IMG/VR virus record: IMGVR_UViG_3300010354_000325
Span: 1-32,668 of that record
Source of the DNA: a virus
Direction: 5' to 3' (one strand)
Length of the DNA stretch: 32,668 bases
Position 1 is the stretch's first letter, and the number at the start of each line of letters is the position of its first letter. Shown piece by piece: positions 4,013-32,668 of this stretch. Made by a program: the position numbers and the translations under genes. The notes below the pieces were generated by a model. The model was not told the DNA's origin. It searched no databases and was given only the letters and a program-made list of their open reading frames with translations.

Positions 4013-4018
4013 CTCCTT
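4013..4018 (-). promoter_or_regulatory. Strong Shine-Dalgarno site that fixes the gp55 start
   Basis: The minus strand reads AAGGAG, then seven bases, then ATT at 4005-4003 in the gp55 frame. It is the best ribosome site in the divergent region and no ATG, GTG or TTG lies at the right distance in frame. This is the reason for choosing the ATT start of gp55. Confidence 0.6.
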
Positions 4019-4073
4019 AACGCTTTATAATAAAAATAACATAGTTTGCCATAAATTGCAACCATTTTTTACA

Positions 4074-15305: not shown

Positions 15306-18300
15306 ATGGCCGTTAGTAGAAAAACTTTAAAATTATTACCTGGCATTTTTCAAACAGATGCGAATCGTAAGTTCCTAGGCAGTACATTAGATCAACTTAT
15401 AAGCGAACCTAATTTTCGTCGCATAAACGGCTATGTCGGAAAAACAATTGGTCCAGGATTTCAAACCACAGATGGTTATGTAGTTGAAAATTCTGCTAGT
15501 AGGCAAAATTATCAATTAGAAGTTGGTCTTGTTGCACGTAACGCTAATGGTCGAGTTGAAAACTTTGCCAATTACCAAGACTTACTAAATCAATTATCCT
15601 ATTATGGTGCAATAACCAATAATCACGATCGCCTCTTTAATAATCAAAGTTATGCTTTTACTCCACCTATAGATCTAGACAAGCTGGTAAATTATAAAAA
15701 CTATTATTGGTTACCAGCTGGGCCAGAAGAAATCCGTATAGGTACGCTACAAGTTTTTCCGGGCACTACTTACAATTTTATAGATCAAACCACTCATTTT
15801 TCAGTTGATGTTGCCGGTACTCAACCGACTCCTCGTTTGATTTTACAACGTGGTGTTACTTATACTTTTAACGCATCGTGTTTTGGTGGAAATTTATTTA
15901 TACAATCTGAGCCAGGTAAATCTGGTACAAAAAAGTATGCTCCTAATGTTTCATCGAGACAAGTTGCCGGAGTCACAAACAATGGCTCAAGTACAATAAC
16001 ATTTACTCCACCTTTAGAAGGTTCACAAGATTTATTACTAAGATACCCTTTAGTTGACCAAGTAGAATATGCATTAGGCACAGGGCAAAGTTTAACAACA
16101 TTAGACAACGCGGTGTGGACATTTGGTATTGGTATGAATAGTAACCTTAATGGTGACCAGTTCTATCCTGATAATACTGAAGTGGTTTTTGTAGCTACCA
16201 ATAATGCCACTAACACCGACTGGGTTGACAGGAATGGACAAGTTATTCCTGTAGATCGCAGAACCGGTGTATTCAAAATGTCGGTGATTAAGTATTCCGG
16301 GCAACCTGCCAGAGTACAATTAGATTTTGTAAGAGCCATATCTAATAATACTCGATTACGTGTTAATCAAGGTGTCAATAAAGGTAAAGAATTTTACAAT
16401 AATGCTGGTTCATATGCTGAATTTAATGGCATAACCGGTGAATCATCCATTTTATTTTATCAGCATAGTGGTAAAAATATCACTGGCGAAATACATATTA
16501 TCGATCGTGCATATCCAACTATTGACGTTAATGCTATACTTGGAGCAGTGACTTATACGACTCCAGATGGTATAACATTTTCAAATGGTATGAAGGTAAC
16601 ATTTGATGATACAATCAATCCTGTACAGTATCGTAATCGAACATTCATTGTAGAGGGTGTTGGTACAGCTATAAAGTTAGTGGAATTATCTACTTTACTT
16701 GCACCAGAGATAACAGAAAACCTAGTACAAACTGCGTTTGAAGTAAAACAATTTGACGTTGGTAAGTACGACGAAACATTTTATGGTTCACGCATACCGG
16801 ATTATATTGTAACAAACAGAGCCAGTTTGGATAAAAACGCTTGGAGTCGTATTAACAGATGGTTTCATAAAGATGTTATTACAGAATCACTGCGTAGAAA
16901 TGGTTATCAAGAAGATCTCAGTGGTTTTGCTAATGCACAGCGTCCCATTATTGAGTTTGATGCAGATTTACAACTATACAAGTCAGGTCGCATATTTGCA
17001 GGATTTGTAAATCATTTTTTTGACTCGTCTAACACCTATGTTGCTCGTGGGCAACAAAGGGTATTTGATGATGCATTAGGAATATTGAATAATTTAAAAT
17101 TTGCCGATTTGTCTGCCTATAACTTGGATCTGAAGCCAGGTGAAACAGCAGTGTTTGGTAATGATAAATCTGTAGCTGTAAGGAAAAAAGTATACTCAAT
17201 CAACCAATTAGATCAAGTTGCTTCAGTTGTTTTTGATGGATTGATAACTGGCACTGTAACAATTGTTGGCAATAAAATTACTGGCACTGGTACAAATTTT
17301 GTAACACAACTTGCCATTGGTACCGATGTATATGCAGCAGATAATGCATATCTAGGACGCATAAGTGAAATAAAAGGTATAAACGAGGCTTTGTTACAAA
17401 ATCCTATTAATTTTGCCTTTGCTAATCGAACAGGTCTTAAGTTTAATCAAGCTAGAATAGTGCTTGCAGCACAAAAAGATTTAACAGATTACGACATAGT
17501 AGTAGGATTTGATGGCACCAATACCGGCAACAGTTTTTACTTGATAGGTAATACTTGGTATCAAGCACAAAGAAAACTTGGTATAAACCAGCCGCCCTTG
17601 TTTGATATTGTAAATGATCGTGGTATAAGTCTAGACACAGCGTACACTGAAAGTTCATTTGCCGGATCTTACATTTTTGGATATAAGCAAACTACAGGAA
17701 TACCAGATCCAGTATTGGGTTTTGCCTTAGACTATTCTGATCCTACAGAACTGTCAGGCGATATCTTATTTAAAAATTACTATGATTCGGATACCTTTGA
17801 ATATAGACCCCAACTGGTATTAGAAAATAGAGTAAAACTTAGTACTAATCTTGGTTTCATTAAAAAAATTACCGGTAGATTTAGCTTTGTTCGAAGCAAT
17901 TGTTATACGCCTGTTGGCGAATTCTCTAGGCAATACCAGCACATTAGAGCCCAGTATGATGCCGTAACAAATTATTTTGAGATAGGTCGTCAACCTCGTG
18001 CCGAAGTAGGCAAAAGACCAACTGTAAAAGTTTTTGTTAATAACAATCAATTACAATTAACATCGTCTACGGTGCCAGAATATCGAACTGAACTAGTTGG
18101 TAATCGTGTAGCATTGGTAATTGATTACAACCTCTTGACCAAGGGCGATAAGATAGACATATTCATCTATGCCGATGGTGCCAGCAGTCTTGGTTATTAT
18201 GAAATCCCGACAAATTTAGAAATTAATCCATTCAATATTGGTGTACAAGAAATTAGTTTTGGACAATACAGAAGTAACCTAAAGAAAATTGGTGAAAATA

Positions 18301-21300
18301 ATAGATTTTTAGTTGGAAATATTTTTCAATCAAATAACATAAGAGACCTCAACACTAAAAACGTTCCTGGTACTATTTTACAGCATAGCGGATCTTTAGT
18401 TCCTGCTATGGCTTTTTTGACCAATAATCAAATTAATTTTATAAATGCCTGTGATTTTGCAGCCAAAGAATACACAAGATTTAAAAACAAATTCTTAGAT
18501 GCAGCAAATAATTATTTAGACCGTGATATAACCCAAGTACCCGTCATAGTAGACGAAATTCTTCAAAGATTAACCGAAGTTAAAAATGAAAAGTTTGCTT
18601 GGCATTACTCGGACATGGTACCATTTGGTGGCAAAAATCAGATTACTAATCGTAGAGTAACTGCCGGTGTACAAAGAATTTACAATTTAACTGGAACGTA
18701 CCTAGACCAGCCCAGCAATGTTGCAATGTTGGTTTATATCAATAATAAAATTTTAAGTCGTGATCGTGACTATACACTGCAAGATAAGTTACTAACTATC
18801 TCTAATAGTGTATTATTAAAGGAAGGTGACGTACTCACCATAAAAGAATACTATGACACTGACGGATGTTACGTACCCGAAACACCAACTAAGCTAGGTA
18901 TGTATCCTAAGTTTATACCTGAAAAACTGTTCGATGAAAGTTTTTCTAGTCCGATGTACGTTATACAAGGGCATGATGGCAGCTTACTTCCGGCCTTTAA
19001 TGATATACGTGATAGTATTGTTTTAGAATTAGAAACAAGAATTTACAATAATATCAAAGTTGGTTATACAGAAACCCTTTTCAATCGTCGTAGGTATAGC
19101 CCGGGTCGATATAGAAGCACTGAGTACACAAGATCTGAATTTAATTCGGTATTAAGCCTTGAGTTTTTAAAATGGGTAGGAGAAAATAGCTTAGATTATA
19201 CTACCAATAGTTTCTTTGATTCAAACGATGAATGGTCGTGGAATTATAATCAAGCTAAAGATTTAGATGGTATGCGAGTTCCTGGCTATTGGCGTGGAAT
19301 CTATCGTTATTTTTATGATACTGATAGGCCACATACTCATCCCTGGGAAATGCTTGGTTACTCAATCAAGCCCACCTGGTGGTCTACTTACTATTCATGG
19401 ACTGATCCCGAAAAACGTAGAGCATTAATTTCGGCCATAGAAACAGGTAGAACACTAAGCCCTGGCGTTAATAATTTTCTCACCAACATTAATTCAAGTT
19501 ATGCTAGACCGGGATTCGCAACAGTAAATCCTGTAGATAATAATGGACAATTGATTCCGCCGCAGCAGGTAATGATTTCAGGCTTTGACAGCGAGCGGTT
19601 ATCGGGTAATTTTACAATAGGTGATTTTGGCCCAGTTGAATCAGCATGGACCAAAACTAGTGAATATGCTTTTGCCGAGCAACGTGCGTTTGCCTTATTG
19701 AAGCCTGCACAATTTTTTGCTCTTTACATTGATACGCATAAGAATTTATTTAATGCCGCTATAAATCAATATGTGGTAAGAAGCACCACTGCTAGGTATG
19801 ATTTCAAACAACTTACAATTAATGGCGAATTTAGAAATAATCAAATTCAACGTAGCTCTAGTTATGTAAATTGGATACATGGTTATCTTACCGGTATTGG
19901 TATAGATGCTGCCCCCCGTATCCGCACCTTGGTAGATTCTGCCTCATTGAATTTATCTTACAAATTTGGTGGATTTACTAACAAAAACTATATTAATGTT
20001 TTAGCTAACCAAATTAGTTTAACAAGTAAGAGTCAAAGTTTGGTCATACCAGAAGAAAGTTACACAATACATTTGCACAAAAGTTTGCCAATTGAAAGTG
20101 TTGCATACAGTGCAGTGATAATCGAAAGAACCAGTCGTGGATTCAGTGTAAATGGGTATGATCAAAAGTTTCCATACTTTACTATAATTCCAAGTCAAAC
20201 AACAGGAACCAGTAATCAAGTAACTATTTTAGGCGAAACTGTGATATTGTTTGAAAAGTTTCTGCCGCAGAAAATTAAAATACCATATGGGTTTGAATTT
20301 ACATCATTGCAACAGGTCAGCGACTTTTTAATAAGTTATCAACGATATCTTTCGGCTCAGGGTATTATATTTGATACATATGATGCAGGATTAGGTACTG
20401 TAAGGAACTTTACACTCAGTGTACAAGAGTTTATTACTTGGGCTAAACAAGGTTGGAAATCCGGCAATATATTAGTATTGAGTCCAATTGTTGATACCAT
20501 AAGTATATTCTCACAAAACTTTGTAGTTGATCATATAGACAATTATGTATATGGATCACAAATTGTTGGCACTAACTATAACATAATTAGAAATAATGAT
20601 TTTACAGTATTAAGAGACAATAAACGCACAACCATTACCACCATTAGTGGACAAACTATTGCTTTGATTAGATTGAATCTAATTCAATATGAACATGTTC
20701 TACTACTAGATAATATCAGTATTTTCAATGATATAATTTATAAAGCCGAAGTTGGTAATAGACAACAAAGAATTAAACTGCTAGGGTCAGTTACAGATTC
20801 ATGGGATGGAGAATTAACGCCACCGGGTTTTGTATATTCTGATGGCAAAGTAGATAAATGGCAAGCCAATTTTGATTATAAGAAAGGCGAGATAGTTGAG
20901 TACAAATCAAGATTCTTTAGTGCTTTGCAGGATATTGAAGGCTCTGACAGTTTTAATTTTAATTATTGGACAAGATTAGATTCTTCTTTTAGAGAAGGAT
21001 TGTTACCTAACTTCAGTCAAAATGCTGCTAAGTTTACAGACATTTATGATGTAGACACGCTACCTTACGATGAAAATTTAACACAATACAGTAATAGTTT
21101 AATCGGATATCGTACAAGGTCATATTTAGATAACCTAGGGTTAGATCCAGTATCTCAAATCAAATTTTACCAAGGCTATATAAAAGATAAAGGTACCATG
21201 AATGCTGTTACAGCATTTGAGCGTGGTGTTTTTAATAATGTAGAAAACGCTATTGAAATATATGAAGAATGGGGTGCTAGGCTTGGTGTATATGGAGCCA

Positions 21301-24300
21301 TTGATAATAACCCAGAGTATAGTTTTATATTACAAAATAGCAAGATAGATGACAATCCCATGTTGTATCAAATGGTTGATGCAAATCAATCTGCCGACAA
21401 CCATTTGTTCAACACAATAAAACCAAGAGATTTACAAATATATCCCGATAATTATTCGCCGCATATTTTTAAAAATCGCAATAAATTTGAAAGTCGGATA
21501 TGGAACATCGAAATGTTTGGCGATGGCACCATGAACGGGAAACTGGTTGAAAAAGATAGATATGCTATCGACGTTATTAAACGTCGTGGATATAGTATAG
21601 ATATTCAACAAACAGGTGCATATTCCTTGATGGTGACCGGTCCTTTTGATCAAGAATTTGCAAAAACAGTGGGTCCTCAAGGCACCTTCCAAATTTATTT
21701 TACCAGTGCATATCCAAATGAACAACTGTTCATGACTATAGAAACACCCACAGCCTCTGATGTTGAACTAAGTCGTTCTCAAGGCGACGAGCAAGTATAT
21801 ACATCTACTGATGTTGTTTATGCTAATTCTGATGTATGGGCAGCGTTTACTACAAATGACTACTTTGAGCGTGTTTATGTAACTTTAGAGCCTGCTCTGT
21901 ATCCAGATGCACCTAGAACAATGACTCAGCAAGGATCGGCGTTTTATCCTGATGAAGTCAAGATGGGCGAAAATATTTTCTTAGAAGTTACATCATTATT
22001 TGAACAAGAAGAAGTATATTGGAGTTTCGAAGAAGTCAGCGATCAAGAAGTACCTGGAGATTTTACCGAGGGACTGGGCGACCAAATTAATACTTCTAAT
22101 GATAAAACACAGGGTCGAGTTGGTCAAACACCTGACTTTATGTTGTTTAATGCTTTAGAAAAAGACTTTGAAGTATCTGTAACATCCAAAGCTGCCGAAG
22201 TTTCTACTACTAAAATGTTATTAGATGGCACTGACGGTGTAAACAAAGTATGGCCTGACAGTGTCGAAGCTGACATTGTTATCATCAATCACGGATTTAA
22301 TGATGCCAAGATGGGCGTTCCGGTTGAAACATATAGACAAAATCTAGTAACACTAAGACAACGTCTTCCTAAAAATAAGGTAGTTGTTTGGCAAACTCCC
22401 TTACGCATAGACAAAAGTAATCCCTATACAAACTTTGCTCCAGTGGGCACAAATGATCTCACAGCATACGCTGCGGCCATGATAACTGTAGCCAATGACT
22501 TTGGTGATTATGTTGCAGATGTTTTTAACAATGAAGAATTAAGAAATCATTTGGCAATTGACGGCATACACCCAACACAAGAAGGTTATAGAATAATTGT
22601 AGAAGATATTCTACAACCGGTGGTACGTCAGGCTATCGGTGATCAAATTCGTGGACAATACAAGTATTACGAAGATGATATCAAAACTGCCGGTTATGTA
22701 ATGTTGGACGAAGTTGATAGTCTTGTATTTGATATAAGAAACTATAGAGAATTTGATTCTAACTTATTGGCAAATCTAACTCGAGGTTATAAAATTTGGG
22801 TAGCCAAAGACTTTGATAATGATTGGCAAGTTTATCGTGCTTATATTTCACCTGTACAGATTACCGCAGCGAGAGCAGATTTAGATAATAAATTAGTGTT
22901 TACCTGTACAGCACCGCATAGATTACATATAGCTGACATGGTAGCTGTGCGTGGGGTCAGCAATTTAGTAGATGGTTTTTATCAGGTGTTTACTGTCACA
23001 GACGTTGAGTTTGTTGTAATCAAAACTGGTCTAGCAAATGATTTTTCAATAACAGGTAGTAGAGCTAACTTAATTGATTTAGAAAAATTGAGATTCCGTA
23101 ACCATGCTGAATTAGCAGCATATACTCCTAAGTATGGATGGATCGCTGATAATAAATTTGATCTACCAAGGGCAGAATCTAAGGACATTATCTATATAGA
23201 TGAAACCGGATTACCTAACTCTTGGGCAGTTTATAGACCTGCTATATCTGATTTCACATACAATAATATCTTCTTCAGTAATGTTATAGTTTCTAATGTG
23301 TACAGTATTGTGGGAATAAATTGCGAAGTTGCAAATTCTTTAGTGACCGCAGCCGAATACAGTGACGTAATTAATTTCTGTGTGTTTGGTATTGAAGATG
23401 GTGAAGAACTATACTATACCATTGAAGATGCCACAGAAGATGACATCGACCGTGACGCTGTAATAGGTGGAGAAACAGTAACCGTCAAAGAAAACGCAGT
23501 CAGTATTGAAAATATACAATATGATTATGTAAAACTGCGTTCGGCAGACAATATAGTTGATATTGAAAGCATTAATAATATCTATCTTTATAACAATAAG
23601 AACAAACAAATATTGAGTCGCGTTGACCTATTTGATCCAGCCAAGGGAAGAATTCTCGGACAAGCAAGAGCCGATATTGATATTATATCAAATCGCGATC
23701 CTGCTGCTTATCGTGTCACTGATGCCAGCACAGACTTTTACTTTAGTGAAGAAGTTTTTTGGGGTCAGGATCAAGTAGGCACTTATTGGTGGAATACTGA
23801 TAACTCGCGTTACATTGATTATGAACTAGGTGATTTGAAATATAGAACAGACAACTGGGGTAGACTATTTCCAGGAAGCACTATCGAAGTTTATGAATGG
23901 TTTGCAAGTGATGTATTACCGTCTGTTCATGTAGCACAGGGTTTGGAGGGCACGCCCTTATTTGCCAACGACGAATATTATTCTGATACTGTATATTTGG
24001 ACAAGGAGACTGGTAGTTTTAGAACCAAGTATTATTTCTGGGTAAAATCACGTACTAACAAATCTAACCAAAGTAAAAATAACAGTACTGCTTCGCTAGA
24101 GGCCATGATACGTGATCCGCTAATACAGGGTTATCCCTATCTAGCTGCATTACGTGATGATGCTGTGGCTGTGTATAATGCAGGAACTTATCTCAATAAC
24201 GATGAAACAATTTTATATATTTCTAGTAAACGTCTTGTAACCGACCAAATTATTCATAGTGACTTTGTTTTATTGCAAGATGGAAACCCTGCTGTGCGTT

Positions 24301-27300
24301 TTCCAGAGGCACTTGAAAACAAATTAATAGACAGTTTGGTGGGATCAGACACTACAAATAATCTTGTACCTAATCCTTTACTGATTGAGCAGAAAAAATT
24401 AGGGTTAGGGGTAAGACCACAGCAGACATTAATTGCCGATAAGCGTCGTGCCAGAAGCAACATTATAAAATATATAAACGATATATTAATTCAATACCCT
24501 GTTGTCAGTAAAATCGTCAACAATAAAGGAATTTTTTCTGATAATTTTTTTGCCAGCGAAGCGGAACCTGCAGGCAATACTTATACTGCGGCAGTAGAGA
24601 CTAAAGATCAAATTTACGATCCTGAACAAACTGTGCCCACCATGTTGATTTTGGTAAAGAGTGATGTAACTCTCGGTGGGCTATGGGCTTTATATTCTAG
24701 AACCGGAACAGTTGGAGAATATCCAGCCGCCTACAATACTCAAATACGTTTAGTTAAAAAACAAAGTTTTGACGTAACTACTTTATGGAAATTCCATGAT
24801 TGGTATTTACCCGGTTATACTAAAAACACACAGCCTGATGTCATAGTAGAGGAGTTCAAAGATGTATACAAACTTGATTTAGTACACGGCATCATAGTCA
24901 AAGTCAAAAACAATACAAACTCAATATTGCCATATGGTAATATTATAAACGATTACGAGGAAACTCAAGGCGATTGGGAGTTATATAGATTTGATGCTAT
25001 ACCGGGTGGTAGATTTAATCCTGTGTTGATAGGTCTCGCTAATAAAACACTGCAAATTTCAGATACTGTAAGTGATTTTGAAGGGTTCGATGCTTTTGAT
25101 TTTGATGTTGATGTGTATGATAATCGCAAGGACATAGAATTAAGATATATTCTTGCAGGGCTAAAGTCAGAAATTTTTGTCAATGAACTAAAAGACGAAT
25201 ATACCAAGATGTTGTTTACCATGGTAGATTACATATTGGCTGAGCAAAAATATATTGATTGGTTCTTCAAGACCAGTTTTATTTCTGTCAAACATTCCAC
25301 TCGCGAGTTAACAAGATTAACATCAACCGTTAGTAATTATCAAAAAAATGTAGAAGACTATGTAAGCGAAATCAAACCATATAGAACAAAGATAAGAGAA
25401 TTTATTTCATCTTATGACAACGTGGAAAATTATGTTAGTAATGTGACCGATTTTGACGTACCTGCTTACTATGATAAGGAACTAAAAGTATTTAGAAGTC
25501 CAGATGGTACATATTTTGAACGCGATATATTAAGGCTTGCTAGACCTGAATATCAAGCATGGAATCAAAATTATCGATATACCATAGATGAACTAGCGAT
25601 ATCTAGACCTGGCTATGGTTTTCAGAACTTTGATACTGGTGCAGCTATAACTCCGGCTATTGAAATACTACGTACCGATAACAGTCCGGGATTAGAGGCC
25701 AATGCCGAAGTTAAGATAGATAATATTAATTACGGTATAAACAAAGTATACATGGTGAGTACAGGGGAGAATTACACATCGACTCCTGTTGTAAAAATAA
25801 TAGGTACCGGTAGTTCTAGGCCCAGTGATGATGACAAGTATGTGTTTACTGTGGTATCACAAGGCTATAGTTATTACACATTAAATCTAGACAAAAAGTT
25901 AAGTTTTGGGCTATATGGTAATTTCAATGCAGATACATTAACAAAAAATTATGCTAGATCACTAGTATCACCAATTGCATGGACCACTGGCACAGGATCA
26001 ACTGGCAATTTTATCAAGCATGGACTTGACTCAGAAAATCATCGTAAAAGAGATCTTGATCCTTGGATGATGGAAAACCTAGTTTGGGAAACAAGACCTG
26101 CAGGTGATGGCAATAACGATGGTGGATATACCACTAACTTTTTTACAATAGACCCAACCAAGACCTATCGTAGTGTGGTATGGATGCGTAGAAATTCTTC
26201 GGCCAATGGTGGAACATTCAATCATGGTGTTTATACAGATGGTACATGGCCTACGTCGGGTGCTGGCACAGGTAGTATACGTAGATTGGTAGATGGAGTG
26301 GGTGTAAGTGATGCTGTTTGGTCAGGACGTAATGTAGCAGATTATTACATGGGCGAATGGTATCTACACGTAGGGCACATATTCCCTAGCAGTCACACTG
26401 GCACTACTGCTCACCCTGATAGCGGCATTTACACTCGTACAGGTGGGCGTGTTTATACCAATAATGGCAGTATCGATGACGGAAAGTTTCCTCCAAACGC
26501 CGCTCAAGCCATGCAGCGTGTGCATCATAGTTTTTGTTCAGACACCGATACTAGGGCTCAGTTTGTTTATCCTAGATTTGAAGTAGTCGATGGTACTGAA
26601 CCTAGTGTATATCATTTATTGCGTTTTGGTCCTTATGCCGATGTAAAACACAGTGTGGCCAACCGCGGGTATCACATGCATAGGATACGTCGTGCTGATG
26701 GTTATGTGGCTTTTTCAAGAATATATGACATTTACCTAGAGTCAAACGCAGGGTATACAGGTTATACTACCAAAGATCTTGTAATAGATCTTAATGCTAC
26801 AACAGATGACTATGTAGTAGTTGTTCATACCTACGACGAACCTAGCCGCAATAGATTGAATAATAACTTACATTTGGCCATGCAAAGATGCGGTGCCAGT
26901 GTTGAAATGTTTGGCAAACCGGGAACTCCGGCACCAAACTTCCGTTTCAGAGGCAGTTATATACTTGTTGGTGTGCCTGGCTGTGGTGCTGGTCGTGGTA
27001 TAGAGCATTATGCAGGATCAGTAGACAATGCCGATGATGCTTATTGTAGTGTTACATTCAAGATTGAACGTGGCTACATGGCAGCATTATCTTCTAATCC
27101 TAGACATTACAAGTTCAACTATCCATTCCAGTTACCGGCTCTTCCCAATACCGGACAAAGTTACACATATGGTGAGCGTATATATGTGTACGATGGATTT
27201 ACCTGGCGTGGCACAAAAGTAATTACTCCATCTTTGCCAAATAGTCGTATGCCGGCATCGACAGTATTAACACCACGCCTTACAAATCGTACAGTAAGAA

Positions 27301-29723
27301 AAGTCAAAACTACATTACGTTTTGATCGTGTGCAATACACCACAGTGTTTAGAGAATGGGCTCCGCAAACTGCCTATGTTGCAGGGGAATATGTAAGTTA
27401 TCTAGGACAAGGTTACACAGTCAAATCTGATTTTTTCTCCAGTGCTAATTTTAATACTGTGTTTTTGACTCCGGTTGCTGCTGGTAGTTTTGATAATGCT
27501 AATGATAGAACCATGGGTTTCTACATTCAGACCCCGACCAACTCAGTACCCAAAGTACTTTATCAACTTATTCCTGGTATAAGTTCTTTGAATCCTGTAG
27601 CAGTAGGAAATATTCGACAAACAAATGATACAATATTATTCGGTGATACATTTGGATCGTCGGCTGGTTTATCTGCTGGAAATATCAAAGTAGCTGGTGG
27701 TAAATTTGTTGATAGAATATTCTCTCATTCACCAGAAGAATTATTGCCGGGATCAATATATGATAGTCTATCTATCAGAGTAGCAGAATTAACAGTTGCA
27801 GCCAGTTCTACTACTACAACCACTGCTCCTCCTGCCGGACCTAATGAATTGCACTTAGTTGGCGATAGCGAGTCAACCATAGAAGTGCCCTATATTGAGC
27901 GTCCGGTTGAAACCAGTGACAGTTTTGCTGTGGGCATACGCGGGGACGACAGCATAGGCGGTTTAAGTCCTATTGAAATTGAAGTTATAGAAAAACCGCC
28001 AAATAGTTCGGTAACTATATATCCGCAGAACTTTAGTTTGTTAACTGGGCAACAGAAACAAGTTTTCTTCCGTACTCAAAATGTCATGTTAGATGGTAAT
28101 GTCTGGTATGACCTTACTACTAATCATAATGATTTCAAGTTACTTGATAACAGTCCGGTTTGGAATGAACAAGTACGAGGAAACTTCAAGTTTAATGTTT
28201 CTGGCAATATTTTAGATCGTGCAAGTTCTATAGCACCTGCTATGACTGGAATCAATACAAGTCCTGGTGGTTACAATACTGTATGTATGTGGATGCGTTG
28301 GACCGGAGAACCCAACGGATTCCCAATGGAATGGAAAACTGGTTACAGATTATGGATGCCTGGTGGTGCACTAGGATTTAACAACGGATCTGGTGACCTA
28401 TATGGAGTAACCAGTAGCCAGTTCGCAATGTTTAAGAATTCTTGGGTATTTGTTACAGCAGTGTTCCATAATACAATTGGTGGAAGTACCTATGTCGGAT
28501 ATAACAAATTATATATAAACGATCGACAATTTACACTAACACAGGTAAATGGACCGGCTACTTCGGGCACAGCTGGAATCGGAATTACTATTGCTAACAT
28601 TACTAATCCTTCTGTGTCTCCGGATGACTACGAATTTGATGGAGACGTGTCTGAAGTGTTTGTCTATAACAGAGAATTAGATGCCGGCGAAGTTGAAGGA
28701 TTGTATTTCGCTACTAAACCGAGATATCCAGCACCACCGACTACAACTACAACATCAACAACAACTTCGACGTCGACTACAACCACTACTATAGCACCTC
28801 CTCCTCCATTGCCACCAGGTATTTCTGCCACTAATGCTGCTTGGGGTGGAAATGGCTTTGGGGGTACTGTAAATTATCGTGGAGGATATAGTGCAGCGAA
28901 AAGTCATATGGGTAATGGCGGCGGCGGATCGGCTAGTCCACTTGGTGGTGAAGGTGGATCTTGGGTTAGTCCTATAGGTGGTGAAGGTGATCATGGAACC
29001 GGTGCTTCGGGTGGTGGTTATACAACTGCTGGAATAGCAGGCACAGGGGCAAATCCTGGATATAGTGCCAGTGCTGTGCAAGCTACTGGTGTTGGTAATG
29101 GTGGCGGTGGAGTAGAAACAGATGGTGCTAACAGTGGCACAGCTCCAATCAATGGTGGTGATGGCACAGGTGGTTTGGTGCGAATAACAATTGCCGCAGG
29201 TACGTATACATTTACTACAGCTGATGTTACTGCATTTGGTGCTACAAGATTAGTTGCCAGTGGTCAAGGCATTGAGTGGGATAACAGTGCCAATACAAAT
29301 AAGAAAAATACTGCAAATGTTTATCAACACGCACTGGTAGGTAATTTCACAGTGCCTGTGGGAGTAACTGCTATTACTGTTGGCGTAATCGCCGGTGGAG
29401 GTGGCGGTGCTACTGGTCCTTGTGTTAATGCCGGCGGGGGCGGAGGTGGTGCATCTTTACTACAAAATTATGCAGTTGTGGCAGGACAGAATTTTGTAGT
29501 TAAAGCAGGTGCCGGTGGACAAGGTGGAAGACAACCTACAGATAGAGGATCAGCAGGAGGACCACCTTATGGAGTAAGTGATGCACCTTGGCGTGGTGGT
29601 TGGTCAAGTTTCTGCTCTTTTAATGGTACTGAAATTTTTTACGCCACTGGTGGAAACACAAGACCTGATAATTGTGCCAATGTACAAAACGCTGATTCGG
29701 CTTCGGCGAATACAAGAGATTAG
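15306..29723 (+). CDS. Giant modular baseplate/adhesin protein (4805 residues; T4 gene 7 position)
   Basis: One uninterrupted frame of 14.4 kb following gp6, where T4 has the 1032-residue gp7. The N-terminal part (LLPGIFQTDANRKFLGSTL, TNNHDRLF, LVNYKNYYWLP) and later blocks (YWRGIYRYFYDTDRPHTHPW) belong to a family I associate with aquatic T4-like phages, probably wedge or peripheral baseplate. Modules, by residue: cupredoxin-like 170-250; beta-barrel repeat GTVTIVGNKITGTGTNF 643-690; carbohydrate-binding CBM5/12-like 1850-1896; SGNH-hydrolase-like about 2245-2445 (GFND 2330-2333, DGIH 2419-2422, serine missing); beta-sandwich 3560-3780; ILEI/PANDER-like 3785-3925; second CBM5/12-like 4015-4058; Thr/Pro linker 4169-4178; LamG/lectin-like 4266-4470; Thr/Pro linker 4479-4507; Gly-rich 4508-4805. 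The C-terminal modules are adhesin-type, so host contact is likely. It ends in adjacent in-frame stops TAG TGA. Baseplate role fairly sure; gp7 homology is a guess from position. Confidence 0.7.
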   Translation: MAVSRKTLKLLPGIFQTDANRKFLGSTLDQLISEPNFRRINGYVGKTIGPGFQTTDGYVVENSASRQNYQLEVGLVARNANGRVENFANYQDLLNQLSYYGAITNNHDRLFNNQSYAFTPPIDLDKLVNYKNYYWLPAGPEEIRIGTLQVFPGTTYNFIDQTTHFSVDVAGTQPTPRLILQRGVTYTFNASCFGGNLFIQSEPGKSGTKKYAPNVSSRQVAGVTNNGSSTITFTPPLEGSQDLLLRYPLVDQVEYALGTGQSLTTLDNAVWTFGIGMNSNLNGDQFYPDNTEVVFVATNNATNTDWVDRNGQVIPVDRRTGVFKMSVIKYSGQPARVQLDFVRAISNNTRLRVNQGVNKGKEFYNNAGSYAEFNGITGESSILFYQHSGKNITGEIHIIDRAYPTIDVNAILGAVTYTTPDGITFSNGMKVTFDDTINPVQYRNRTFIVEGVGTAIKLVELSTLLAPEITENLVQTAFEVKQFDVGKYDETFYGSRIPDYIVTNRASLDKNAWSRINRWFHKDVITESLRRNGYQEDLSGFANAQRPIIEFDADLQLYKSGRIFAGFVNHFFDSSNTYVARGQQRVFDDALGILNNLKFADLSAYNLDLKPGETAVFGNDKSVAVRKKVYSINQLDQVASVVFDGLITGTVTIVGNKITGTGTNFVTQLAIGTDVYAADNAYLGRISEIKGINEALLQNPINFAFANRTGLKFNQARIVLAAQKDLTDYDIVVGFDGTNTGNSFYLIGNTWYQAQRKLGINQPPLFDIVNDRGISLDTAYTESSFAGSYIFGYKQTTGIPDPVLGFALDYSDPTELSGDILFKNYYDSDTFEYRPQLVLENRVKLSTNLGFIKKITGRFSFVRSNCYTPVGEFSRQYQHIRAQYDAVTNYFEIGRQPRAEVGKRPTVKVFVNNNQLQLTSSTVPEYRTELVGNRVALVIDYNLLTKGDKIDIFIYADGASSLGYYEIPTNLEINPFNIGVQEISFGQYRSNLKKIGENNRFLVGNIFQSNNIRDLNTKNVPGTILQHSGSLVPAMAFLTNNQINFINACDFAAKEYTRFKNKFLDAANNYLDRDITQVPVIVDEILQRLTEVKNEKFAWHYSDMVPFGGKNQITNRRVTAGVQRIYNLTGTYLDQPSNVAMLVYINNKILSRDRDYTLQDKLLTISNSVLLKEGDVLTIKEYYDTDGCYVPETPTKLGMYPKFIPEKLFDESFSSPMYVIQGHDGSLLPAFNDIRDSIVLELETRIYNNIKVGYTETLFNRRRYSPGRYRSTEYTRSEFNSVLSLEFLKWVGENSLDYTTNSFFDSNDEWSWNYNQAKDLDGMRVPGYWRGIYRYFYDTDRPHTHPWEMLGYSIKPTWWSTYYSWTDPEKRRALISAIETGRTLSPGVNNFLTNINSSYARPGFATVNPVDNNGQLIPPQQVMISGFDSERLSGNFTIGDFGPVESAWTKTSEYAFAEQRAFALLKPAQFFALYIDTHKNLFNAAINQYVVRSTTARYDFKQLTINGEFRNNQIQRSSSYVNWIHGYLTGIGIDAAPRIRTLVDSASLNLSYKFGGFTNKNYINVLANQISLTSKSQSLVIPEESYTIHLHKSLPIESVAYSAVIIERTSRGFSVNGYDQKFPYFTIIPSQTTGTSNQVTILGETVILFEKFLPQKIKIPYGFEFTSLQQVSDFLISYQRYLSAQGIIFDTYDAGLGTVRNFTLSVQEFITWAKQGWKSGNILVLSPIVDTISIFSQNFVVDHIDNYVYGSQIVGTNYNIIRNNDFTVLRDNKRTTITTISGQTIALIRLNLIQYEHVLLLDNISIFNDIIYKAEVGNRQQRIKLLGSVTDSWDGELTPPGFVYSDGKVDKWQANFDYKKGEIVEYKSRFFSALQDIEGSDSFNFNYWTRLDSSFREGLLPNFSQNAAKFTDIYDVDTLPYDENLTQYSNSLIGYRTRSYLDNLGLDPVSQIKFYQGYIKDKGTMNAVTAFERGVFNNVENAIEIYEEWGARLGVYGAIDNNPEYSFILQNSKIDDNPMLYQMVDANQSADNHLFNTIKPRDLQIYPDNYSPHIFKNRNKFESRIWNIEMFGDGTMNGKLVEKDRYAIDVIKRRGYSIDIQQTGAYSLMVTGPFDQEFAKTVGPQGTFQIYFTSAYPNEQLFMTIETPTASDVELSRSQGDEQVYTSTDVVYANSDVWAAFTTNDYFERVYVTLEPALYPDAPRTMTQQGSAFYPDEVKMGENIFLEVTSLFEQEEVYWSFEEVSDQEVPGDFTEGLGDQINTSNDKTQGRVGQTPDFMLFNALEKDFEVSVTSKAAEVSTTKMLLDGTDGVNKVWPDSVEADIVIINHGFNDAKMGVPVETYRQNLVTLRQRLPKNKVVVWQTPLRIDKSNPYTNFAPVGTNDLTAYAAAMITVANDFGDYVADVFNNEELRNHLAIDGIHPTQEGYRIIVEDILQPVVRQAIGDQIRGQYKYYEDDIKTAGYVMLDEVDSLVFDIRNYREFDSNLLANLTRGYKIWVAKDFDNDWQVYRAYISPVQITAARADLDNKLVFTCTAPHRLHIADMVAVRGVSNLVDGFYQVFTVTDVEFVVIKTGLANDFSITGSRANLIDLEKLRFRNHAELAAYTPKYGWIADNKFDLPRAESKDIIYIDETGLPNSWAVYRPAISDFTYNNIFFSNVIVSNVYSIVGINCEVANSLVTAAEYSDVINFCVFGIEDGEELYYTIEDATEDDIDRDAVIGGETVTVKENAVSIENIQYDYVKLRSADNIVDIESINNIYLYNNKNKQILSRVDLFDPAKGRILGQARADIDIISNRDPAAYRVTDASTDFYFSEEVFWGQDQVGTYWWNTDNSRYIDYELGDLKYRTDNWGRLFPGSTIEVYEWFASDVLPSVHVAQGLEGTPLFANDEYYSDTVYLDKETGSFRTKYYFWVKSRTNKSNQSKNNSTASLEAMIRDPLIQGYPYLAALRDDAVAVYNAGTYLNNDETILYISSKRLVTDQIIHSDFVLLQDGNPAVRFPEALENKLIDSLVGSDTTNNLVPNPLLIEQKKLGLGVRPQQTLIADKRRARSNIIKYINDILIQYPVVSKIVNNKGIFSDNFFASEAEPAGNTYTAAVETKDQIYDPEQTVPTMLILVKSDVTLGGLWALYSRTGTVGEYPAAYNTQIRLVKKQSFDVTTLWKFHDWYLPGYTKNTQPDVIVEEFKDVYKLDLVHGIIVKVKNNTNSILPYGNIINDYEETQGDWELYRFDAIPGGRFNPVLIGLANKTLQISDTVSDFEGFDAFDFDVDVYDNRKDIELRYILAGLKSEIFVNELKDEYTKMLFTMVDYILAEQKYIDWFFKTSFISVKHSTRELTRLTSTVSNYQKNVEDYVSEIKPYRTKIREFISSYDNVENYVSNVTDFDVPAYYDKELKVFRSPDGTYFERDILRLARPEYQAWNQNYRYTIDELAISRPGYGFQNFDTGAAITPAIEILRTDNSPGLEANAEVKIDNINYGINKVYMVSTGENYTSTPVVKIIGTGSSRPSDDDKYVFTVVSQGYSYYTLNLDKKLSFGLYGNFNADTLTKNYARSLVSPIAWTTGTGSTGNFIKHGLDSENHRKRDLDPWMMENLVWETRPAGDGNNDGGYTTNFFTIDPTKTYRSVVWMRRNSSANGGTFNHGVYTDGTWPTSGAGTGSIRRLVDGVGVSDAVWSGRNVADYYMGEWYLHVGHIFPSSHTGTTAHPDSGIYTRTGGRVYTNNGSIDDGKFPPNAAQAMQRVHHSFCSDTDTRAQFVYPRFEVVDGTEPSVYHLLRFGPYADVKHSVANRGYHMHRIRRADGYVAFSRIYDIYLESNAGYTGYTTKDLVIDLNATTDDYVVVVHTYDEPSRNRLNNNLHLAMQRCGASVEMFGKPGTPAPNFRFRGSYILVGVPGCGAGRGIEHYAGSVDNADDAYCSVTFKIERGYMAALSSNPRHYKFNYPFQLPALPNTGQSYTYGERIYVYDGFTWRGTKVITPSLPNSRMPASTVLTPRLTNRTVRKVKTTLRFDRVQYTTVFREWAPQTAYVAGEYVSYLGQGYTVKSDFFSSANFNTVFLTPVAAGSFDNANDRTMGFYIQTPTNSVPKVLYQLIPGISSLNPVAVGNIRQTNDTILFGDTFGSSAGLSAGNIKVAGGKFVDRIFSHSPEELLPGSIYDSLSIRVAELTVAASSTTTTTAPPAGPNELHLVGDSESTIEVPYIERPVETSDSFAVGIRGDDSIGGLSPIEIEVIEKPPNSSVTIYPQNFSLLTGQQKQVFFRTQNVMLDGNVWYDLTTNHNDFKLLDNSPVWNEQVRGNFKFNVSGNILDRASSIAPAMTGINTSPGGYNTVCMWMRWTGEPNGFPMEWKTGYRLWMPGGALGFNNGSGDLYGVTSSQFAMFKNSWVFVTAVFHNTIGGSTYVGYNKLYINDRQFTLTQVNGPATSGTAGIGITIANITNPSVSPDDYEFDGDVSEVFVYNRELDAGEVEGLYFATKPRYPAPPTTTTTSTTTSTSTTTTTIAPPPPLPPGISATNAAWGGNGFGGTVNYRGGYSAAKSHMGNGGGGSASPLGGEGGSWVSPIGGEGDHGTGASGGGYTTAGIAGTGANPGYSASAVQATGVGNGGGGVETDGANSGTAPINGGDGTGGLVRITIAAGTYTFTTADVTAFGATRLVASGQGIEWDNSANTNKKNTANVYQHALVGNFTVPVGVTAITVGVIAGGGGGATGPCVNAGGGGGGASLLQNYAVVAGQNFVVKAGAGGQGGRQPTDRGSAGGPPYGVSDAPWRGGWSSFCSFNGTEIFYATGGNTRPDNCANVQNADSASANTRD
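27810..27824 (+). repeat. Thr-codon linker repeat 1 (giant protein)
   Basis: A run of ACT/ACA/ACC codons encoding TTTTT, followed by Ala/Pro. It separates the CBM-like region from a beta domain leading to the LamG-like module. Its 12-mer at 27813-27824 is identical to one at 28776-28787. Confidence 0.7.
28740..28790 (+). repeat. Thr/Ser-codon linker repeat 2 (giant protein)
   Basis: A 17-codon run of Thr with a few Ser codons, followed by a Pro-rich stretch (APPPPLPPG). It joins the LamG-like domain to the Gly-rich C-terminus. Base composition is low complexity (ACN repeats), while the frame stays open. Confidence 0.75.
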
Positions 29724-29738
29724 TGAAAGCTCAATAAA

Positions 29739-32668
29739 ATGGCAATTTTTTTTAATGAAGGTCAATCTGGAGCAGGTTCGAACTTAAGTAAATGGAATCG
29801 TAACGACACCTATACAATGTCGTCGATTTCTGGTATAACTGGACCTGTTGTTTGTCATGGACCATCACCTGGGCAGTATACTCTTACAATTAATAATATA
29901 CCCGCACACGCTAGATTACGTTATTCGGTTTACTGGCATTTTGTTGACAGTTTAGATAACGAGCTTAGTTATATCATGATTGATGGTGTAATATGGGCGG
30001 AGTTTAGAAAATCTGGCTTTGGTGGTATTAGCCCTCCAACATACACCATTAATAAATTCACGTCATCTACCTGGAATCCTGCAAATTATAGTTACGCACC
30101 GTGGGGATCAAATAATACATTAAATGGTTATGTTGCATTTGATACTGGTTGGTTTGATCATACTTCTAGCACGCTGTTCGTAGATCACATTTTAGGACAT
30201 GATCAAAGCCAGCCCGACGAAGCCATGTACCTAAGTCATGTCATGTTAGAATACTATTCAGAGGTGGCAAATTTACCAACTTCGGGATTAATTTTGCGAT
30301 TAGATGCTGGTATTGTTGATTCTTTTCCTGGTAAACAAAAATTTGTATTTAGAGCTAAAAGAACAGGCACTACAGAATCCGTTATATTTACACACTATCA
30401 TCGAGCTAACTCTCTGCCAGTAACAACATCTACATCGGGATTTTTTACTCCGCCTGCTCCTAGGATACGTGCAACTACCACCACGACCACAAGTACTACA
30501 AGTACCACAACTGAACCACCTACTCCGATTACAATAAATATTTCTTCAAATTTACCAAATCCAATTTTAGCACATCAGAAACCGCAAATTACTTTTACGT
30601 TTAACTTACCGGTCGTTGTTTTTGAATCTGCTAATGTTGTAGCACAAGGTTCGGGTATTCTTGACAATTTTAATTACGTGGCCGGATCAACTACAGGGTA
30701 TGCTAGTTTTACCCCAACACCTGACGTTTTAGGGTCCTATACTATTTTTATACCTGTGCCAAATATTACAGGTACTAATGGTGCTGTTAATCAATTTAGT
30801 AATATTCTTACGTTGAATGTGAATTCTGTTAGACCAGAAATGCTTATAACTACGTCAGATGCTTTATTGATTGCCGGTGAAGTTGCTAATCTTACATTCA
30901 CCAGTAGTAATAACACTTCAAACTTTTCAAGCACAGATATTAATCTAGTTGGACCCGGTACCTTTGATTCTTTCACTGCTGTAAGTGGTACCGTTTATCA
31001 TGCCAATGTATATCCGCGTGCTAGTTGGGTTGGCGAAATAGAAGTTAATGTTGCTGCAAGATCCTTTACTAATGTAGTTGGCAATTTCAATAAGCCTAGC
31101 AACGTATTAAAAATTCCAATCGATACTAGAATACCCTCTATGGTAATTACCACAGACGATTCGTTCCTTACCTATAACCAAACCGCAACATTGACTTTCA
31201 CCAGTAACCTAGCCACTACAAACTTCGTACGTGGTGATGTAACAACAGTTGGTAAAGGGGTTTTAGGGGCATTATCGGGATCAGATGCTGTTTATACTTC
31301 AGTCTACACTCCGCAGGCAGATGAAATTGCGATTTCGGCAAGCAATTATAATCAACCCAGCGGCGAGTGGTCTTCATTTATTGAATTAAATGGTACCGTA
31401 GTTACTACTGTGGGTCGTGGGCACATGGCTGCTGTGTTTGATACCAGTCAAGGTAATATACGATTCGTTTCGTCAACTACCAAAGATACGTATGGCACAC
31501 CATCAGATATAACAGATTTGATAGCTTATTTGTCCGCAGTGCCGGCCGGAAATCTCCTAGTAATGACTTCTTTTGATGCCACGACAGTAGATACAGCGTT
31601 GAGAACTACATTAAACTCTGACTTTGGCGGTGTTCGTTCGGAAACATGGTCGGCAATTCGTTATAGCCATGTATTTGTTGGTTACAAGAGTTTAGCGGGC
31701 AGAACTGCTTATGAAGACATAATCTTTACGGGCACAGAAGGGACATTGTTAGCTAATGTTTATGGAATAGCTGGATCTTTCATGGCCAATGTTATGGCTG
31801 CAACATACACTAGCGCTAATGGTAACCCAAATACTTCTTCTAATGATTTGAGTTTGACCTACGATACTGAACGTCCCAACATGTCAATTTATTCTAATGA
31901 CCAATACTTGACATATGGAGAAACAAGCGTTGTGTATTTCGTAGCTACACAACCCACAACTGACTTTGCATTTGGTGACATTGTTGTTTCCGGCGATGGT
32001 GCATTATCTGGGTTCACTGCTGTTTCGAATATGGTATATACAGCGACCTTAACGCCTACTACAAATACAACGGGTGCAATTTATATCTCCGTACCAGATT
32101 CATCGTTTACTAACTCAGTAGGTAATCCTAACCTTGCCAGCCGTATAGTGAAGATAGAAGTTATGACTGTTACAACAAGTACTTCTACCTCAACCACTAC
32201 TACAGAAGCTCCTGGTATATCAACGACTACTACAACAGCATCTGGATCTGGAACTACTACAACTACCACAGACTCGGGATCTGGAACTACTACAACTACC
32301 ACAGACTCAGGAGCTGGAACTACAACTACTACAACAGCATCTGGAGCTGGAGCTGGAACTACTACAACTACAACAGCATCTGGAGCTGGAACTACTACAA
32401 CTACAACTACCGCAGTATGTGATTCGAGTGTAATGGTTTATTCTAATGGTATTGACTTTACAATATGTCCATCATGCGATTACAATTTAGGAGCAGGCAC
32501 TCGGGGTGTATACACAGCAACAAACTTCTCTGGTGCAACAAGTTATTCTATATCAACCATTGCTGCTACCTCAGCAGCCGCTTCACAAGCCGGACCTTTT
32601 GCTACTGGTCTGACTACCTTTACAAGAACTACCTTAGCTGATAATACCTATTATGTAACTGTAAGAGA
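29739..32668 (+). CDS. Modular tail-fibre/adhesin-like protein, 3' end cut by window edge
   Basis: Open frame from ATG 29739 to the window end (976 codons seen), in the same frame as the giant protein upstream. Modules, by residue: N-terminal beta-sandwich about 20-175 with RYSVYWHFVDSLDNE and DTGWFDHTSS, seen in aquatic phage virion proteins; Thr/Ser linker 246-258; Ig-like repeats 264-365, 365-463 and 711-810 of the Big_12 type (e.g. GDGALSGFTAVSNMVYTATL, SFTNSVGNPN); a further repeat starting at 461 that is interrupted by an ILEI/PANDER-like domain at about 559-663 (RGHMAAVFD, TSFDATTVDTALRTTL, YSHVFVGYKSLAGR) and resumes at TYTSANGNPN; a Thr-rich tandem-repeat linker to about 892; then a Cys-containing domain (CDSS, ICPSC). 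This layout suits a fibre or peripheral baseplate adhesin. No Shine-Dalgarno site precedes the ATG. The T4 counterpart is unclear. Confidence 0.75.
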   Translation, partial: MAIFFNEGQSGAGSNLSKWNRNDTYTMSSISGITGPVVCHGPSPGQYTLTINNIPAHARLRYSVYWHFVDSLDNELSYIMIDGVIWAEFRKSGFGGISPPTYTINKFTSSTWNPANYSYAPWGSNNTLNGYVAFDTGWFDHTSSTLFVDHILGHDQSQPDEAMYLSHVMLEYYSEVANLPTSGLILRLDAGIVDSFPGKQKFVFRAKRTGTTESVIFTHYHRANSLPVTTSTSGFFTPPAPRIRATTTTTTSTTSTTTEPPTPITINISSNLPNPILAHQKPQITFTFNLPVVVFESANVVAQGSGILDNFNYVAGSTTGYASFTPTPDVLGSYTIFIPVPNITGTNGAVNQFSNILTLNVNSVRPEMLITTSDALLIAGEVANLTFTSSNNTSNFSSTDINLVGPGTFDSFTAVSGTVYHANVYPRASWVGEIEVNVAARSFTNVVGNFNKPSNVLKIPIDTRIPSMVITTDDSFLTYNQTATLTFTSNLATTNFVRGDVTTVGKGVLGALSGSDAVYTSVYTPQADEIAISASNYNQPSGEWSSFIELNGTVVTTVGRGHMAAVFDTSQGNIRFVSSTTKDTYGTPSDITDLIAYLSAVPAGNLLVMTSFDATTVDTALRTTLNSDFGGVRSETWSAIRYSHVFVGYKSLAGRTAYEDIIFTGTEGTLLANVYGIAGSFMANVMAATYTSANGNPNTSSNDLSLTYDTERPNMSIYSNDQYLTYGETSVVYFVATQPTTDFAFGDIVVSGDGALSGFTAVSNMVYTATLTPTTNTTGAIYISVPDSSFTNSVGNPNLASRIVKIEVMTVTTSTSTSTTTTEAPGISTTTTTASGSGTTTTTTDSGSGTTTTTTDSGAGTTTTTTASGAGAGTTTTTTASGAGTTTTTTTAVCDSSVMVYSNGIDFTICPSCDYNLGAGTRGVYTATNFSGATSYSISTIAATSAAASQAGPFATGLTTFTRTTLADNTYYVTVR
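30474..30512 (+). repeat. Thr/Ser-codon linker repeat 3 (fibre gene)
   Basis: Encodes TTTTTTSTTSTTT followed by EPP. It links the N-terminal beta-sandwich to the Ig-like repeats, with the same codon style as the linkers in the gene upstream. Confidence 0.7.
32244..32414 (+). repeat. 33-base tandem repeat encoding a Gly-x-Gly-Thr6 linker
   Basis: Five consecutive in-frame units. Units 1, 2, 3 and 5 are 33 bases (11 codons) and unit 4 is 39 bases, with two extra codons (Gly-Ala). They encode GSGTTTTTTDS twice, then GAGTTTTTTAS, GAGAGTTTTTTAS and GAGTTTTTTTA. Units 1 and 2 differ at a single base (TCG versus TCA in the last codon), suggesting recent duplication by slippage. The length differences are whole codons, so the frame is kept. 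Confidence 0.85.

Follow-up and report, generated by a model that had tools for sequence, protein, structure and literature searches.

How a phage fibre can carry a binding part without placing it at its tip or adding it to the end of its shaft is the question raised by the fibre gene at the end of the DNA analysed here, a stretch of 32,668 nucleotides of an uncultured virus (hereafter the window). The third Ig-like repeat of this fibre (Ig3) contains a segment resembling ILEI/PANDER domains, and it has to be decided whether this segment is nested within the repeat or merely follows a part of it, and which role it might have there. Our analysis makes it likely that the gene encodes an adhesin-type fibre of a T4-like phage, in which Ig3 hosts a domain similar to FAM3 and the stem of POMGnT1, a probable sugar binder that is varied by recombination and by further nesting.

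Organization of the fibre gene and its surroundings

The fibre gene starts at position 29739 on the plus strand and comprises 976 codons within the window, with the reading frame still open at its end. The encoded protein consists of, in this order, an N-terminal module, a Thr-rich linker, the Ig-like repeats Ig1 and Ig2, Ig3 split by the ILEI domain, Ig4, another Thr-rich linker and the beginning of a C-terminal domain (Table 1). Gene, reading frame and peptides named in an earlier, sequence-only reading of this DNA were all recovered in the ORF list and the translation, and both families which that reading had expected in the fibre, PF15711 and Big_12 (PF19078), were identified by Pfam. Big_12 matched the whole fibre protein with an E value of 2e-33 in four stretches and was covered over its full length in Ig4. 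Ig3 extends from 31122 to 31868 and comprises 249 residues, compared to about 102 in its sister repeats.

Table 1. Features of the fibre gene, and the second ILEI domain of the window
Feature	Position	Strand	Basis
Fibre gene	29739..32668	+	ORF list and translation, Pfam
N-terminal 'HFVDS' module, ~170 residues, undescribed	29748..30266	+	alignment of 13 copies, tree
Ig-like repeat 1, uninterrupted	30519..30827	+	repeat alignment, 12-repeat profile
Ig-like repeat 2 (Big_12), uninterrupted	30822..31127	+	Pfam, 12-repeat profile
Ig-like repeat 3, N part, 67 residues	31122..31322	+	profile positions 1-68, 49 bits; pLDDT mostly 80-96
Nested ILEI/GG/PANDER domain, 150 residues	31323..31772	+	PF15711, POMGnT1 stem profile match, Foldseek
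Arg560, equivalent of POMGnT1 Arg129 (sugar contact there)	31416..31418	+	profile alignment, 13 copies, PMC9802357
Asp613, equivalent of POMGnT1 Asp179 (sugar contact there)	31575..31577	+	profile alignment, 13 copies, PMC9802357
Arg641, equivalent of POMGnT1 Arg207 (sugar contact there)	31659..31661	+	profile alignment, 13 copies, PMC9802357
ILEI loop SLAGRT; ~175 extra residues (module) here in L003 and L004	31689..31706	+	sequence comparison
Ig-like repeat 3, C part, 32 residues	31773..31868	+	profile positions 71-102, 19 bits; pLDDT about 90
Ig-like repeat 4, uninterrupted	31863..32168	+	Pfam, 12-repeat profile
Second ILEI domain, in 4805-residue tail protein	26616..27020	+	profile search; present too in three relatives

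The neighbouring genes are T4-like and encode SbcC/SbcD-type nuclease subunits, a late sigma factor, and baseplate wedge and hub proteins. Just upstream of the fibre gene, positions 15306-29723 are occupied by a single tail protein of 4805 residues, in which a GDSL-type hydrolase domain (2278-2435) is accompanied by a CBM5/12 match (4017-4040), a Gly-rich domain and a separate ILEI domain. This second ILEI domain is also found in L003, L004 and L005, the three uncultured virus contigs that were identified as relatives of the window.

The inserted domain carries a putative sugar pocket

Judged by its sequence, the insert in Ig3 is a complete GG/PANDER/ILEI domain. PF15711 matches fibre residues 560-650 with 26.1 bits in the whole protein, 28.5 bits in the segment and 30.8 bits in a six-frame translation, at a curated cut-off of 27, and reaches 39.7 bits in the relative L005. 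A search of the PDB with a profile of seven phage ILEI copies led to the POMGnT1 stem with an E value of 9e-9.

For structural modeling of the Ig3-ILEI unit by AlphaFold2, an alignment of three sequences yielded a poor prediction (pLDDT 50), and Ig repeats and further ILEI copies were therefore added. The resulting alignment of 22 sequences, in which the four nested units were combined with 12 sister repeats and six additional ILEI copies, gave a mean pLDDT of 82.8 and a pTM of 0.67, with values of mostly 80-96 in the Ig N part, about 90 in the Ig C part and 61-94 in the insert, where they are modest (61-65) towards the C-terminal end of the ILEI domain. Among solved structures, Foldseek matched this model to the POMGnT1 stem (5ggl/5ggn; E 1.5e-5, TM by target 0.69-0.73) and to FAM3B, FAM3C, FAM3A and TMEM2. 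The matches to the POMGnT1 stem and FAM3A/B/C range from 1.5e-5 to 1.9e-4 in E value, each at a Foldseek probability of 1.00, and their aligned length about equals that of the insert. Among viral models, the search returned phage ILEI proteins, a Bacillus phage receptor-binding protein and T4-type gp35 hinge connectors.

POMGnT1 contacts beta-linked GlcNAc through Arg129, Asp179 and Arg207, and FAM3C and a nematode FAM3-like domain bind GlcNAc as well (PMC9802357). Arg560, Asp613 and Arg641 of the fibre align with these ligand residues of POMGnT1, which are spaced there by 50 and then by 28 positions, and their columns are three of the six that are invariant in 13 phage copies, those of dairy phages included. 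With L005 as tblastn query, copies of the domain were detected in a receptor-binding protein of a Lactococcus phage and in Tal, the host-specificity protein of Streptococcus phage TP-778L. The copy in Tal had earlier been named CBM_1 because it has the fold of the POMGnT1 stem and shares the pocket Arg and Asp (PMC9437275). Neither the ILEI nor the Ig alignment retrieved relatives when bacterial and archaeal genomes were scanned.

As the pocket residues are invariant and the dairy-phage copies reside in receptor-binding and host-specificity proteins, the ILEI domain most likely binds a host glycan during adsorption, and it is plausible that the fibre shaft presents it as a binding module. We propose that, in an adhesin-type fibre of a T4-like phage, the ILEI domain would sit in the turn between two beta-strands of Ig3, and that the Ig domain would fold around it, so that the two ends of the ILEI domain would be anchored close together. 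The domain could thereby stand off the shaft without lengthening it. Its Arg-Asp-Arg pocket would most likely bind a sugar of the host envelope, be it lipopolysaccharide, capsule or another glycan, and related phages may diversify the binder in two ways, through recombination where the Ig and ILEI domains meet and through insertion of a further module into an ILEI loop.

We consider it rather unlikely that the nested ILEI domain instead has a structural role, bending or stiffening the fibre as a spacer or hinge in the manner of the gp35 connector of T4-type long tail fibres. Such a role would be in line with the appearance of gp35 hinge connectors in both Foldseek and PHROGs and with the GG domain described in phage gp35 (PMC10276149), but a domain nested in a loop is not in line with the shaft, the three residues equivalent to sugar contacts are invariant, and the dairy-phage relatives occur in proteins annotated for receptor binding and host specificity.

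The ILEI domain is nested within Ig3

To determine how the insert relates to its flanks, an Ig profile was built from 12 unsplit repeats, that is, Ig1, Ig2 and Ig4 of the window fibre and of the three related fibres. The N part of Ig3 matches positions 1-68 of this profile with 49 bits and the C part positions 71-102 with 19 bits, whereas about 200 shuffled C parts peak at 8.7. When the flanks are joined without the insert, they match positions 1-102 with 68 bits; the 150-residue insert itself gives no match to the profile. Since both flanks match one continuous profile which leaves the insert unmatched, they constitute one Ig-like repeat, split after residue 67 in the turn between YTPQAD and GSFMANV. 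The insertion point is identical in all three relatives. No fibre with an uninterrupted third repeat occurred among the relatives found, and the sister repeats Ig1, Ig2 and Ig4 served as the uninterrupted reference.

In the AlphaFold2 model, confident Ig strands precede the insert (residues 57-63 of the unit) and follow it (217-224 and 243-248), so that Ig strands flank an ILEI fold rather than two complete domains standing in series; the model is, however, not independent of its input alignment, in which the Ig halves were already set on either side of the insert. The sequence-only reading had proposed that a whole ILEI/PANDER-like domain of 110-150 residues was inserted into a loop and not added end to end. 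The split profile, the predicted strands, the insert-length fold matches and the agreement of four contigs all argue for this arrangement, the measured 150 residues fall at the top of the proposed range, and the PF15711 match together with the POMGnT1 stem and FAM3 fold matches upholds the family.

It is very improbable that the region consists of a partial Ig domain followed in series by the ILEI domain and then by an unrelated additional strand. When Ig3 is searched alone, HMMER does place Big_12 on no more than the N part (profile positions 1-69 of 102, ending at the insert), but the C part supplies just that final third of the Ig profile which the N part lacks, with a score more than twice that of any shuffled counterpart, its strands are modeled with high confidence, and four contigs agree. 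That the insertion results from an assembly or sequencing error can practically be dismissed, for although the window and its three closest relatives all stem from uncultured viruses, the reading frame is unbroken throughout, and the insertion sits at the identical residue in three further public contigs, which at only 57-62% protein identity to the window are not copies of one error.

A recurring module is nested within the ILEI domain of two relatives

In L003 and L004, the ILEI loop following YSHVFIGYK carries about 175 further residues. These represent a copy of the ~170-residue module that forms the N-terminus of all four fibres and in which His, Asp, Glu and aromatic positions do not vary (WHFVDSLDNE); 13 copies of it were aligned. 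Copies were identified in the window (29748-30266), in L003 (6907-7422) and L004 (7138-7653), and in L015, L016, L017, L018, L019, L020 and L010. Searches of Pfam and the PDB returned no match for the module, and a good PHROG match was obtained for only one of the 13 copies. In other phage tail proteins, the module occurs in company of Gly-rich and laminin-G-type domains (L015, L019) and, at residues 990-1163 of the L020 protein, within an array of RCC1 repeats. The latter tail protein (L020:5028-9482) consists of RCC1-type repeats, as identified by Pfam, between which a laminin-G-type domain (581-734) and the ~170-residue module are set; from this domain order, it is another repeat scaffold hosting inserted, putatively lectin-like parts. 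A distant copy of the N-terminal module is present in a virion structural protein of cyanophage P-RSM6 (L010:5938-7197), the gene of which adjoins tail-fibre and 2OG-Fe(II) oxygenase genes.

The nested copies cluster with the C-terminal copy of phage contig L017 (support 97/95). An origin by internal duplication of the fibre N-terminus was rejected, as a single clade with the N-terminal copies is incompatible with the data (AU p 3.6e-5); the nested module seems to derive from a different phage gene. For the relative with two levels of nesting, a joint alignment misplaced the Ig halves and ILEI rows and was discarded.

Recombination at the border of the nest

Comparison of L003 and L004 reveals a sharp change within Ig3. 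From the N-terminal module through Ig1 and Ig2 into the beginning of Ig3, identical codons are found at 41-42% of the shared residues, whereas nucleotide identity is 97% from the first ILEI residues on. The best single changepoint follows L003 residue 534, at YTATYTPPEG|KIEVQASNYN, which is the nest junction; nucleotide identity rises there from 58% to 97% (likelihood ratio 129). High identity persists across the Ig3 C part and all of Ig4 as far as the Thr-rich linker; the exchanged unit therefore reaches from the ILEI domain through the end of Ig4, and an exchange of the ILEI domain alone was ruled out. The recombined block corresponds to L003:6520-7896 and the matching stretch of L004, comprising the ILEI domain, the nested module, the Ig3 C part and Ig4. 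As judged from the position of the changepoint, half of an Ig domain is joined to the half of the other lineage at the ILEI site. Identity is lower where the ILEI domain ends and over a large part of the nested module (L003 residues about 623-770), a pattern suggestive of a mosaic or of faster evolution of that module.

It might be speculated, if with considerable reserve, that the Ig3 loop is a standing site at which this phage group swaps binding modules by recombination inside the Ig fold, and that the ILEI domain provides a second-level site. If so, receptor range would be set by nested cassettes and not only by the fibre tip.

Relation to known systems

Sequence comparison establishes the nest and the family of the inserted domain, the conservation of its pocket residues, the insertion at the second level and the recombination junction; the three-dimensional arrangement of Ig3 and the ILEI domain is predicted. 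Descriptions of receptor-binding parts in phages usually concern fibre tips or modules added end to end. Both ILEI-type domains in phage tails and binding modules in loops of phage structural domains, as in evolved Dits (PMC7291167), are already known; the Ig-like host domain and the second-level nest are new here, and a search of the open-access literature turned up neither an Ig-like repeat hosting an ILEI domain nor a further domain within such an ILEI domain. The four related fibres provide a natural comparison, having the same Ig host and ILEI domain with or without an inner domain, to which the recombination junction at a domain border inside a fold is added. They allow testing whether nested modules can be swapped without breaking the shaft, a question that bears on the evolution and modularity of phage adhesins.

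With the stem of human POMGnT1 and with FAM3A/B/C (PANDER), the domain shares the fold and the ligand residues; these are, in contrast, animal proteins with about 20% identity, in which the domain is free-standing or N-terminal to an enzyme. T4-type gp35 is not known to have a Big_12 array. This hinge connector is similar in that a GG/ILEI domain resides in a long-tail-fibre protein of T4-like phages (PMC10276149), but the match is confined to the ILEI stretch (phrog_1154 positions 30-126 of 520, E 4e-4) and does not amount to full-length homology, and gp35 is annotated as a connector and not as a receptor binder.

Evolved Dits of dairy phages similarly have carbohydrate-binding modules inserted in loops of structural domains; in the descriptions consulted, the host is the Dit galectin domain, the modules are often of the BppA type, and second-level nesting does not feature (PMC7291167). 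The Pfam and PHROG matches of the window fibre include no Dit family. The CBM_1 domain in Tal of the Streptococcus thermophilus phage TP-778L (PMC9437275) likewise belongs to the ILEI family, has the pocket Arg and Asp as well as the second Arg, and sits in a host-recognition protein. TP-778L is, however, a siphophage and the window derives from a T4-like myophage, and CBM_1 is arranged in series among collagen-like linkers and binding modules, whereas the domain of the window fibre is nested in an Ig-like repeat.
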